Source: a virus. Taken from it: 21,069 nucleotides of DNA. The position numbers and the translations under genes were made by a program. The DNA is taken from IMG/VR virus record IMGVR_UViG_3300012950_000927, positions 1 to 21,069 of that record. The stretch is one strand, 5' to 3'. Below, piece after piece: positions 10,813-19,126 of this stretch (position 1 is the first letter of the stretch; each line of letters starts with the position of its first letter). Under the pieces are notes generated by a model. It saw only the letters and a list, made by a program, of their open reading frames with translations, searched no databases and was not told the origin of the DNA.

Positions 10813-11130
10813 ATGGCTGAAAAGAAAAAACCAGCAGCTAAAAAGGCTCCAGCTAAAAAACCGGCAGCTAAAAAGCCCGCAGCTAAAAAACCTGCAGCAA
10901 AAAAAGCTACCGCTCAAACGAATAAAGCTGGAACTCGCGCCACTACACCGCCACGCAACCCTGCGGCGAAAGAGCGTGCTGCAACACCTAAGAAAAAAGC
11001 TCCTGCAAAGAAACCAGTTGCCAAAAAAGCTGAAGCCCCTAAAACGGAAACGGTTATGGAACGTCACGAAGTGATTTTAGAGAAGCCAACTTTCTTCTCT
11101 AGGCTCGTGTTCTGGCGTCGCCGTCCTTGA
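10813..11130 (+). CDS. Histone-H1-like Lys/Ala/Pro-rich basic protein
   Basis: 105 residues. The first 80 residues are low-complexity KKPAA repeats (MAEKKKPAAKKAPAKKPAAK) with later KKKAPAKKPVAKKAEAP, like the C-terminal tails of histone H1, mycobacterial HU/HupB and other bacterial AKKPA proteins. The last 25 residues (VMERHEVILEKPTFFSRL then VFWRRRP) are a distinct hydrophobic and basic tail. No folded HU domain is present, so it would bind DNA or acidic surfaces by charge. The start at ATG 10813 is chosen because the sequence before it reads as a poor, Cys-containing extension and the divergent promoter lies there. Its stop overlaps the next start (TTGA). Possible roles: genome compaction, host nucleoid binding or cell-envelope contact. 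Confidence 0.8.
   Translation: MAEKKKPAAKKAPAKKPAAKKPAAKKPAAKKATAQTNKAGTRATTPPRNPAAKERAATPKKKAPAKKPVAKKAEAPKTETVMERHEVILEKPTFFSRLVFWRRRP
10828..10902 (+). repeat. Five tandem 15-base units in the Lys/Ala/Pro gene
   Basis: Five consecutive 15-base units of the type AAACCNGCAGCTAAA encode K(K/A)PAAK repeats. Units differ at a few bases (CCA, GCT, CCG, CCC, CCT in one codon position), so the repeat is a degenerate minisatellite able to expand or contract by recombination or slippage. Confidence 0.8.
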
Positions 11131-12388: not shown

Positions 12389-12450
12389 AGACCGCTAATT
12401 CCCTTCCACAGCCCCACAGAGCGCCTCTAAGCGCTTCTTAGCCTTATTAG

Positions 12451-12471
12451 GTACTTATTACAGGTGGTAAA
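12451..12471 (+). promoter_or_regulatory. Shared motif upstream of the tRNA
   Basis: GTACTTATTACAGGTGGTAA ends 6 bases before the first base of tRNA-Lys. It matches GTACTCATTACAGGTAGTAA at 1762-1781 with two differences, including the short dyad TTAC/GTAA. Because the tRNA needs a promoter and none of standard form is seen here, this motif is likely to be the promoter or the site for an activator. TTATTA at 12444-12449 is a possible -35-like element. Confidence 0.5.
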
Positions 12472-12475
12472 AGAC

Positions 12476-12547
12476 GGGAGTGTAGCCAAGCGGTAAGGCA
12501 GCGGACTTTTAATCCGAAGATCGCGGGTTCGATTCCCGCCACTCCTA
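12476..12547 (+). tRNA. tRNA-Lys (anticodon TTT)
   Basis: 72 bases fold as a complete cloverleaf: acceptor GGGAGTG with CACTCCT (one G-T pair at the end), D arm GCC...GGC around AAGCGGTAA, anticodon arm GCGGA/TCCGA (outermost pair mismatched) with loop CTTTTAA, variable AGATC, T arm GCGGG/CCCGC with loop TTCGATT, discriminator A. The anticodon TTT reads AAA/AAG. No CCA is encoded. It ends two bases before the end of a convergent gene. Lysine-rich phage products such as the 10813 gene could benefit. Confidence 0.93.
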
Positions 12548-12548
12548 C

Positions 12549-15753: not shown

Positions 15754-16032
15754 ATGACAGGGATACTGAAACGATTAGCGAAGATTGGTGCAGGTGTACT
15801 CGCAGTAGTACTTGCTGTATGGATATTCGCTATGGTCAACGACGAACATGCACAGTTCACCTGCGACGGAACACCTCACGTCGCTACTCACGGTGACACA
15901 ATATGGAACATCGCCATCGCTCAATGCGAAGGCAACTTAGAGAATGCGGTGTATCACATACGTGAACTCAATGGTGGTTCGATGATCCGAGTCGGTCAAA
16001 AAGTTTTGGTGCCTACGGGTGATACCCAATGA
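15754..16032 (+). CDS. Membrane-anchored LysM domain protein
   Basis: 92 residues. A basic start (MTGILKRLAK) precedes one membrane segment (about 11-28, IGAGVLAVVLAVWIFAMV), and the rest (about 30-92) lies outside the membrane. It carries a single LysM domain, HVATHGDTIWNIAIAQC (42-58) to IRVGQKVLVPTGD (about 78-90), which binds peptidoglycan or chitin glycan chains. C37 and C58 could form a disulfide. It may hold the membrane close to the wall, alter the host surface or help lysis. ATG 15754 is chosen because of a well-spaced leaderless promoter; an upstream extension reads as a Cys/Leu-rich stretch in G/T-rich DNA. Its stop overlaps the next start (ATGA), so WhiB is translationally coupled. 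Confidence 0.83.
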   Translation: MTGILKRLAKIGAGVLAVVLAVWIFAMVNDEHAQFTCDGTPHVATHGDTIWNIAIAQCEGNLENAVYHIRELNGGSMIRVGQKVLVPTGDTQ

Positions 16033-16328
16033 CTCGTAACATATGGAGACAACACGCAGAGTGTGAAGGTGTTGATCCTTCTATCTTCTTCGCAGAGAGG
16101 GGAGCCAACACTCGTGCCCCTGCCCTTGCCTACTGTAACAAATGTTCAGTTCAAGACTCATGCCTAGCAGAAGCAGTAGTCATCCCTGACCTAACAGGAA
16201 TCTGGGGAGGTAAGACATTCAGAGAACGTAGACGTATACGTCAATCATTGAAGCTATCTAATGAGATGCCCTTCGATGAGGTCGTCATCGCTTTGAGATC
16301 ACGACGCTCTATAGGCGGTCTTAACTAA
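16029..16328 (+). CDS. WhiB-family Fe-S transcription regulator (second copy)
   Basis: 99 residues. Cluster ligands C12, C36-x2-C39-x5-C45 and the GIWGG turn at 57-61 are all present, followed by a basic segment (FRERRRIRQ) typical for WhiB C-termini. It differs from the copy at 2873 in its N-terminal domain (IWRQHAECEGVDPSIFF here) and has normal spacing between C12 and C36, so it is probably a separate acquisition rather than a recent duplicate. It would reprogramme transcription with the actinobacterial sigma factor or antagonise a host WhiB. It starts on the LysM stop (ATGA) and its TAA overlaps the ATG of the HNH gene (TAATG). Confidence 0.93.
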   Translation: MTRNIWRQHAECEGVDPSIFFAERGANTRAPALAYCNKCSVQDSCLAEAVVIPDLTGIWGGKTFRERRRIRQSLKLSNEMPFDEVVIALRSRRSIGGLN

Positions 16329-17581
16329 TGGCTAAGTGTAAGAAGGACTGCACCTGTAACCGTCATTCAAAGAAGAAGGTATTCTGCAAGGTCACCAACT
16401 CTGAAGGTGTTCGCTGTAATCGCAAGATTGGTAGAGGTCATCGTGATGGTCTGAACCATGACGGTAACACTAAGGAAGAACTGTGTGGCACACATGCGGT
16501 TCGCAAAAGCACACATGGTGATGTCCAAGCAGATATCCCTATACAGATAGTGCATGGTGTAGATGTTAAACGCCCACCTTGTCCTGTACCTGATTGTGAT
16601 AAAGATGCAAGAGGTTGGCAAGGGCTTGCCATTTACTGTGACACCCACGGGCAACGAATGCAAGATCATGGTTCTACAGATGCCAGAAAGGGAGCACATA
16701 TCAACATGGGCAAGACGTGTTCAATTGATGGCTGTGAGAAGGATGCAGTATGGAAAGAAATGTGTAACTCTCATGCCAGCGCTATGCACAACAGAGGAAC
16801 TGTTGAGGAAACCGAATGGCATAAGGCTAGACGAAGTGAACCTAAAGAACCCTGTTCAGTACCCAACTGCGAAAACTTGCGCACGGGTAGAAAGGAGTAT
16901 TGTAAGCCACACGTAACGAGACTCAGGAAGACGGGAGACTTGGGACTGAACAAGCCTTGGCGTCACAAGAGTGGAGAGTCCAACGACATCTGTATTGTTC
17001 CCTTAGAGGATGGCTCCCCTTGTGGCAACGCCGCACGCACTCACCCTCTTGCAGAACGAAACAATCCTGACTGGAAGTGGGGACGAATATGTCAAGCTCA
17101 CTATGGTCGTTACAATAATCACGGGCATGTTCGGGCAGGCGAAAAGATTAGGAAGAGGTACCTATCCGACTTGCCTCTTAGTGAGCGGATACCTATCTGG
17201 CTCGACCCTGACAACGGATACGTCACAGTTACAGACAACGAATGTTTGGCATGGGAGGGCGCTCTTAGCGCCAATGGTCAAGGGTACGCCGTCGTTCCTG
17301 TTTCGAAGATTGATGACACCACACGAACATCACCGTGGTTAGTCCATCGACTCGTATGGGAACACTTCAATGGGCCTATCCCCACGGGTAATCATGTCCA
17401 TCACATCTGTGGTACTCGTAGGTGCATCAACCCTGAGCACCTCGAATGTATCGGTGCGGTCGAGAACACCTCTGAAGCTTCTCGTATCAAACAGTTCCGT
17501 GACAAAGTCAACGAAGAAGGTATAACTATTGAAGAACTCAGGGAATGGATCGTAGAAACCACGGAGCTTCAACATGCCTAA
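16328..17581 (+). CDS. HNH endonuclease with five N-terminal zinc-finger repeats
   Basis: 417 residues. Five successive Cys/His units of the form C-x(4-10)-C-x(n)-C-x2-H occupy residues 20-56 (C20, C30, C53, H56), 85-107 (C85, C90, C104, H107), 131-149 (C131, C136, C146, H149), 176-195 (C176, C181, C192, H195) and 222-258 (C222, C232, C255, H258), each followed by a short helix ending HG/NRG/KTG. The C-terminal domain (about 290-380) is HNH: LVWEHFNGPIP, HVHHICGTRRC and NPEHLEC supply H359, N368 and H371 with C361 and C366 as metal ligands. Architecture is that of a free-standing homing endonuclease whose fingers read DNA. ATG is overlapped by the WhiB stop (TAATG). It ends in a region holding a partial copy of the next gene. 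Confidence 0.9.
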   Translation: MAKCKKDCTCNRHSKKKVFCKVTNSEGVRCNRKIGRGHRDGLNHDGNTKEELCGTHAVRKSTHGDVQADIPIQIVHGVDVKRPPCPVPDCDKDARGWQGLAIYCDTHGQRMQDHGSTDARKGAHINMGKTCSIDGCEKDAVWKEMCNSHASAMHNRGTVEETEWHKARRSEPKEPCSVPNCENLRTGRKEYCKPHVTRLRKTGDLGLNKPWRHKSGESNDICIVPLEDGSPCGNAARTHPLAERNNPDWKWGRICQAHYGRYNNHGHVRAGEKIRKRYLSDLPLSERIPIWLDPDNGYVTVTDNECLAWEGALSANGQGYAVVPVSKIDDTTRTSPWLVHRLVWEHFNGPIPTGNHVHHICGTRRCINPEHLECIGAVENTSEASRIKQFRDKVNEEGITIEELREWIVETTELQHA

Positions 17582-17612
17582 GTACCAATACCGATGCAAC
17601 ACATTAAGATAG
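17574..17612 (+). pseudogene. Truncated 5' copy of the downstream FmdB-type gene
   Basis: ATG CCT AAG at 17574 begins inside the last codons of the HNH gene (whose TAA overlaps the frame). It encodes MPKYQYRCNT, then LR and TAG. The true gene at 17617 begins MPKYQYRCNTCG. Over the first 30 bases the two agree at 26, and all four differences are synonymous (TAC/TAT, CAA/CAG, CGA/AGA, TGC/TGT). Thus the fragment is the start of a diverged, once functional homologue, cut off after ten codons. Confidence 0.85.
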
Positions 17613-17616
17613 TCAC

Positions 17617-17844
17617 ATGCCTAAGTATCAGTACAGATGTAACACATGCGGAGAAGAGTTCGAGATGAACCAGTCAATGATGGATGACACACTAAAGATC
17701 ATCGAACACTCGACATGCTCAGGCGAGGTCAGTAAAGTGTACTCACCAGCAGGGATAACGTTCGGATCTGATGGCTTCTATCGCACAGATAACGACAAGA
17801 GCCGGAAGAATGACAAAGACTGGTCAGGAGGCAAACCTGAATGA
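17617..17844 (+). CDS. FmdB-type small zinc-ribbon regulatory protein
   Basis: 75 residues. The N-terminal MPKYQYRCNTCGEEFEMNQS is the FmdB/CxxC-CxxC ribbon start (C8, C11), a region after it has HSTC instead of the usual second CxxC (H31 and C34 may complete the metal site), and SDGFYRTDN (about 51-58) is a conserved family stretch. The charged end (DKSRKNDKDWSGGKPE) is presumably disordered. Such proteins are presumed regulatory or metal-binding; phage copies are common and untested. It follows the HNH gene after the truncated copy of its own start. It is followed by a terminator at 18054. Confidence 0.82.
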   Translation: MPKYQYRCNTCGEEFEMNQSMMDDTLKIIEHSTCSGEVSKVYSPAGITFGSDGFYRTDNDKSRKNDKDWSGGKPE

Positions 17845-18053: not shown

Positions 18054-18089
18054 GGAACCCTCAGCCTCCCTGTCTTGGCTGGGGGTTCC
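18054..18089 (+). terminator. Terminator between convergent genes
   Basis: GGAACCCTCAGCC (18054-18066) pairs with GGCTGGGGGTTCC (18077-18089), 13 base pairs with one G-T wobble, loop of 10, followed by ATCTTTTA. It ends the fmdB-side transcript and probably also blocks the convergent minus gene, which ends 6 bases further on. The 210 bases between the FmdB stop and this hairpin hold no gene I can support. Confidence 0.85.
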
Positions 18090-18094
18090 ATCTT

Positions 18095-19126
18095 TTAGTA
18101 CATGTAGATGCGCCAGTTGGCCAAACGGTTACGGGTGTTATCCATGAGGTATCGAGCCATACGTAGGTTGCAATCCACGTCTAAAAGCATCGTCTCTAAG
18201 CTGTATCCGTCACATACCCTAAATACCGCACGGGAATGTATCGAATTGATCTGTACAAGCCCATAATCGACTGAACCATCACTATTTAGAGTGTCGTTGA
18301 TGATTGATGGGCGACATCGGCTCTCTTTCCAAGCCACATATGACCAAACGTCAACTGGGACGAGTCCATACGCTAAAAACGTTTCTTCCCACTCAGGACA
18401 GCGCTTTTCTTCATCCATTGGATAGTCATAGCCACCAGTACCTGCTATTTCATTAAGACTGTACGAAACATCGATGGGTTGCCACTGTCCAAGCCTCACG
18501 AGTGCTTTTACGTGCTCTCCACGAGTGATCGGTCCATATACGCCATCAGTCTCTACACCTAAGTAGTACTGCAACACCCTCACGTCTTCATCGAACCTCA
18601 AGAATGTGTATTCGTCTGTGATGATCTCCATAGCCAATTCATTGACGACTAGATCGCTGATATCTGAGATCAAGGTAGTCGGCACGAAATATGTAGCCAT
18701 TATCTCGTATTCATCACGATAGAACTCTGGCGTGTGGTTATCAGGGGGACACTCTGGGTAACTGTTCATGTCACCCCAATCCTCATTCCAACTAGGGAGT
18801 GGATATTCCCAATCATCAGGTATCTCACTGAATACCACGCAATCAGGAGGTGCTTCTGACGCTAATCGAGCCTCTGGTGGTATAGACAACGTCGTAGTAG
18901 TCGTGGTAGTCGTAGTAGATGACACGGTCGTTACCAACGTGGTTGTTGTTGATGTGTCATACATGTACGTATGGAGAGGCACCCCTGAGATGCCGCTTTC
19001 ACGGATCAACTCGATTGGCGGTTCTGCCACACGGGTGCTACCCATGACTGTGACTCCCCAAATACTAAGAACAATTGCTGTGAATATTGATAAAGCCTTG
19101 ACGCGACTGCGGATGTCGTATCTCAT
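18095..19126 (-). CDS. Membrane-anchored lytic-transglycosylase-like protein
   Basis: 343 residues. Residues 11-29 form an uncleaved membrane anchor or signal segment (LSIFTAIVLSIWGVTVM) after a basic start. A Thr/Ser-rich linker (about 58-80, including TTTTTTTTTL) follows, then an acidic, Cys-containing segment. Residues 165-215 resemble a peptidoglycan-binding fold (DEDVRVLQYYLGVETDGVYG). The end (about 245-343) has the lysozyme/SLT pattern: VAWKESRC with E268 as the probable acid catalyst, VDYGLVQINSIH (286-297) and a helix with NLRMARYLMDN. It would cleave or bind the glycan strand at the envelope. AAGGGGAG just before ATG is a strong ribosome binding site. Its gene follows the small acidic gene at 19138 on the same strand after 11 bases. 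Confidence 0.83.
   Translation of the reverse strand: MRYDIRSRVKALSIFTAIVLSIWGVTVMGSTRVAEPPIELIRESGISGVPLHTYMYDTSTTTTLVTTVSSTTTTTTTTTLSIPPEARLASEAPPDCVVFSEIPDDWEYPLPSWNEDWGDMNSYPECPPDNHTPEFYRDEYEIMATYFVPTTLISDISDLVVNELAMEIITDEYTFLRFDEDVRVLQYYLGVETDGVYGPITRGEHVKALVRLGQWQPIDVSYSLNEIAGTGGYDYPMDEEKRCPEWEETFLAYGLVPVDVWSYVAWKESRCRPSIINDTLNSDGSVDYGLVQINSIHSRAVFRVCDGYSLETMLLDVDCNLRMARYLMDNTRNRLANWRIYMY

Follow-up and report, generated by a model that had tools for sequence, protein, structure and literature searches.

Free-standing HNH homing endonuclease genes of the HNH_3 type (PF13392) occur in phages at sites between conserved genes. Homologous repair usually leaves no scar, and the junction scars of free-standing endonuclease transfers are therefore rarely readable. 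Illegitimate repair of endonuclease-made breaks, with junctions at microhomologies, has nevertheless been described for phages in T4 intron homing, and T4 also provides the overlap of the endonuclease gene mobE with nrdA; for T4 endonuclease genes, translational coupling and short-range restart have been proposed (PMC2988022). Work from 1999, as cited in the same article, predicts ectopic joins that rely on a short homology, or on none, at one side of the endonuclease gene.

The locus studied here lies in a metagenomic virus record from an uncultured phage, IMGVR_UViG_3300012950_000927, and the window analysed is the whole of this stretch (21,069 bases). On the plus strand, a whiB-like gene, an HNH endonuclease gene, a truncated fmdB start (the stub) and an intact fmdB follow one another (Table 1). 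As in the described phage genes, the endonuclease carries an HNH_3 domain and is encoded between conserved genes, and, reminiscent of mobE and nrdA, its gene overlaps the upstream stop codon TAA by one base (TAATG, 16326-16330). The N-terminal part of the protein is rich in Cys and His, and the HNH_3 domain is C-terminal (residues 338-379; 53 bits against a cut-off of 24.8). The downstream product was assigned to the FmdB-type zinc ribbons (Zn_ribbon_8) by a profile score above the cut-off and by the start MPxYxYxCxxCG. In contrast to the described free-standing genes, the HNH gene of the window, for which homing is putative, carries at its 3' end a diverged, truncated version of the downstream gene's start. 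Although the 1999 prediction concerns the same type of join, in the present case the join is read from a scar in an uncultured phage, without parental alleles.

Table 1. Positions of the genes and sequence elements around the HNH-fmdB boundary of the window
Feature	Position	Strand	Remarks
WhiB-like gene	16029..16328	+	PF02467, E=8e-18
HNH endonuclease gene, 417 aa	16328..17581	+	PF13392, E=2.5e-14; PHROG HNH families
GGAG, Shine-Dalgarno-like, within the HNH 3' end	17563..17566	+	7 nt before the stub ATG; duplex energy -5.8 kcal/mol
33-nt direct repeat, left copy	17572..17604	+	29/33 identical to 17615-17647
Stub frame, MPKYQYRCNTLR-stop, 12 codons	17574..17612	+	codons 1-10 repeat the fmdB start in diverged form
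10-nt spacer TAAGATAGTC, which would hold or border the recombination junction	17605..17614	+	matches neither copy's corresponding flank (3/10, 0/10)
33-nt direct repeat, right copy (start of the intact gene)	17615..17647	+	
FmdB-type zinc-ribbon gene (intact), 75 aa	17617..17844	+	PF09723, 39.3 bits (cut-off 34.4)
Lysozyme-like gene, convergent with fmdB	18095..19126	-	

The last bases of the HNH gene, CATGCCTAA, include an ATG at 17574 that can be read directly from the sequence, and the HNH stop overlaps this start (ATGCCTAA). The initial annotation had placed a truncated fmdB start inside the end of the HNH gene; the stub is real, but only eight of its bases lie within that gene and the remainder is downstream. 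Its first ten codons encode the same residues as the first ten of the intact fmdB, which opens with MPKYQYRCNTCG. Direct reading of the two copies (17574-17603 and 17617-17646) also bore out the earlier statement that they differ at four of 30 bases and that every difference is synonymous (Tyr TAC/TAT, Gln CAA/CAG, Arg CGA/AGA, Cys TGC/TGT).

For comparison, 109 viral fmdB starts were retrieved from IMG/VR by a pattern search. Within 300 nt upstream of these controls, no ungapped copy of their first 30 bases exceeded 18/30 identity, against 26/30 in the window, and a chance match of the stub and the fmdB start was rejected on this basis, although these residues are conserved at the start of FmdB proteins. 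None of 120 HNH_3 genes sampled from IMG/VR had a truncated version of the downstream gene's start. The top-scoring repeat among these 120 genes, in record L162, contained no stub: it is an exact 19-nt repeat, CCGGGAGACGAGCATGAAG (654-672 and 818-836), made up of the ribosome-binding site and start common to two intact, consecutive genes after the HNH gene.

A second phage would be unnecessary if the fmdB start had been duplicated locally together with 10 nt of filler DNA, the silent divergence that followed being due to chance or to purifying selection acting on the intact gene. Some support for this explanation comes from T6, where the endonuclease SegB stimulates local tandem amplification (PMC13096335). 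In its simplest form, a tandem duplication by slippage, it was rejected, as the copies are not alike over the full 43-nt unit: outside the 33 nt (88% alike), the remaining 10 nt match at 3/10 or 0/10 under the two choices of unit, and against the 88% expected under tandem duplication these mismatching flanks have P values of about 3e-5 and 7e-10. With filler DNA added, a local origin still has to account for flanks unlike those of a clean tandem duplication and for synonymous sites that are near saturation (4/9 degenerate codons differ), yet without any amino-acid-changing difference in the stub, although no separate protein is encoded there. Under copying followed by drift, four silent differences out of four have a P of 0.0006-0.003, rising to 0.005-0.022 if the intact copy was under purifying selection; with such selection and with transitions favoured, the outcome reaches 1-2%. 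We thus regard a local duplication as rather improbable. In comparison, two independent codings of the decapeptide would share on average 24.3 of 30 bases, with P=0.22 for 26 (the observed value) or more, so that the identity is at the level of two long-separated genes under selection. Because the differences are only silent, the identity is that of independent codings and the flanks do not match, the stub is best read, from the ten codons that bear on the question, as derived from another functional fmdB, two diverged and selected genes having been joined end to end.

As the record is metagenomic, the two genes could also stem from different phages of one sample, joined in silico at the stub/fmdB boundary. 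However, because the spacer is unique and mismatches between the copies occur every few bases, no shared k-mer spans the join, and the assembler therefore had nothing to join on unless the reads themselves contain the junction. An assembly chimera is thus considered highly improbable. The initial annotation had concluded that the stub must come from a functional homologue in another phage. Our analyses support two diverged fmdB genes, but the wording was too strong, since a duplication with filler and a chimera both retain a small probability.

On balance, the stub is probably a recombination scar at which two distantly related phage lineages were joined. One lineage would have contributed the HNH gene together with 31 bases from the start of fmdB, and these would have been joined to another lineage just upstream of its resident fmdB, through a non-homologous or microhomology-type join at about 17604-17615, and the donor fmdB would have had a ATGCCTAAGTACCAATACCGATGCAACACATG-like start running on into an intact gene behind the HNH gene. 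The event would most likely have been driven by the repair of an HNH-made break at or close to fmdB, in which the right end was joined illegitimately. Such one-sided repair may have used homology or gene-end joining on the whiB side, the join on the other side falling about ten bases upstream of the resident fmdB, and the HNH gene would be the incoming part. The junction may fit ordinary illegitimate recombination as well as an HNH-driven transfer. Composition was uninformative as a sign of foreign origin, as the G + C content of the HNH gene (0.489; other genes 0.42-0.51) is not clearly foreign.

The junction itself shows only that the sequences on its two sides are of different origin. The direction could thus be reversed, the HNH gene and its own overlapping fmdB being resident and an incoming fmdB with downstream DNA having replaced the old one except for its first ten codons. 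The stub keeps an operon-style start, with GGAG and the stop overlap, and the GC3 of fmdB is higher than that of the HNH gene (0.553 versus 0.459, the former from 75 codons only), both of which are in keeping with this order of events. However, HNH genes are of a mobile kind, and an HNH gene has been gained or lost beside a fixed fmdB in the pair of phages described below; we therefore consider the reversed direction unlikely.

The start of the HNH gene, ATGGCTAAGT (16328-16337), matches the fmdB start ATGCCTAAGT at 9/10 positions. Among phage gene starts, two would agree at this level by chance in about 0.2-0.4% of cases, a figure to be read with the fact that the resemblance was noticed afterwards, and ATGSCTAAG occurs on the plus strand of the window only at 16328, at 17574 and in fmdB. 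One speculative and very doubtful idea is that the endonuclease targets the conserved fmdB start and uses it twice, so that its gene would carry fmdB-derived sequence at the start (ATGGCTAAGT, 16328) as well as at the 3' end (ATGCCTAAGT, 17574). If true, insertion of the HNH gene would capture the coupled start codon that follows whiB, and a start with a ribosome-binding site would be regenerated at the other end of the gene.

Returning to the proposed scar, a pattern scan for HNH motifs with an fmdB start 110-140 nt downstream yielded one true case, in IMGVR_UViG_3300048583_000181 (L126; 10249-11026, minus strand), where an HNH gene lies between the portal gene and fmdB. This gene encodes 128 aa and is linked to the preceding portal gene by a TGATG overlap; its own stop lies 20 nt into fmdB, and the relative frame of the HNH gene and fmdB is the one found in the studied window. 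In the closest GenBank relative, MW202489.1, the portal gene lies 18 nt before fmdB with no HNH gene. Because the two phages differ in this way, HNH_3 genes can evidently be gained or lost directly before fmdB, with their 3' ends running into it. As the HNH proteins of L126 and of the window share only the domain, L126 is an analogue and not the donor: the HNH gene directly upstream of fmdB and the HNH stop inside the fmdB start are as proposed for the donor, but there is no duplicated start, the HNH protein is distantly related and the other neighbouring genes differ. An allele lacking the HNH_3 gene at the same site was seen only for this analogous pair. A further record, L128, was a false lead, as its portal gene overlaps fmdB.

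The layout that the initial annotation postulated for the donor, an overlap between the HNH stop and the start of fmdB, is thus present in an unrelated phage that has an HNH-less relative, but neither a donor with an intact fmdB after the HNH gene of the studied phage (DNA and protein searches) nor an empty-site, HNH-less allele or close relative of that phage was found in IMG/VR, GTDB genomes and GenBank phages. In the stretches fetched around the HNH_3 genes of 6 of 48 fmdB-bearing records, no fmdB start was found near HNH_3. In other phages bearing whiB and fmdB, both genes lie in one cluster without HNH, and fmdB frequently has both a GGAG site and a start on the upstream stop (TGATG). An 11-nt overlap between a related HNH gene and the gene that follows it, SSB, is present in Arthrobacter phage Colucci.

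The GGAG and stop-overlap context that is frequent at the relatives' fmdB is still present at the stub but no longer at the intact fmdB. The latter has no recognisable Shine-Dalgarno site, with its ATG 4 nt after the stub stop, and its duplex energy with the anti-Shine-Dalgarno sequence (-0.1 kcal/mol, against -5.8 for the stub start) is weaker than the median of random sites (-2.2). The stub is now probably a 12-codon leader or mini-cistron that couples fmdB translation: after loading at the former donor site, or coming in from the HNH gene, ribosomes would translate twelve codons, stop, and restart at fmdB. The dependence of fmdB on the stub is a prediction, because several other genes of the window also have no clear Shine-Dalgarno site. 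An RNA hairpin controlling fmdB was not supported, with no structure beyond that of shuffled sequences (z=+1.1).

The event is ordinary in kind, a mobile endonuclease in a mosaic phage genome, and the scar is unusually legible. The silently diverged piece of the donor would reveal both the donor layout and the join, and the scar suggests how the downstream gene survives, by translation restart behind the remnant. The weight of these observations is modest, as they concern a single case with no parents in hand.

Several other repeats were observed in the window. An inverted repeat (GGAACC...GGTTCC, followed by ATCTTTT; 18054-18089) between the convergent fmdB and lysozyme-like genes looks like a terminator common to both. 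The two copies of a 26-nt direct repeat (1756-1781 and 12445-12470; 85%), with a TATTACAGGTRGTAA-like core, lie where no gene is evident; the second is just 5' of a tRNA-Lys gene (12476-12548), and the repeat is possibly a phage promoter or operator. In addition, a 15-nt repeat array (10825-11052) encodes KKPAA units, rich in lysine, alanine and proline, in a small basic protein resembling histone H1.
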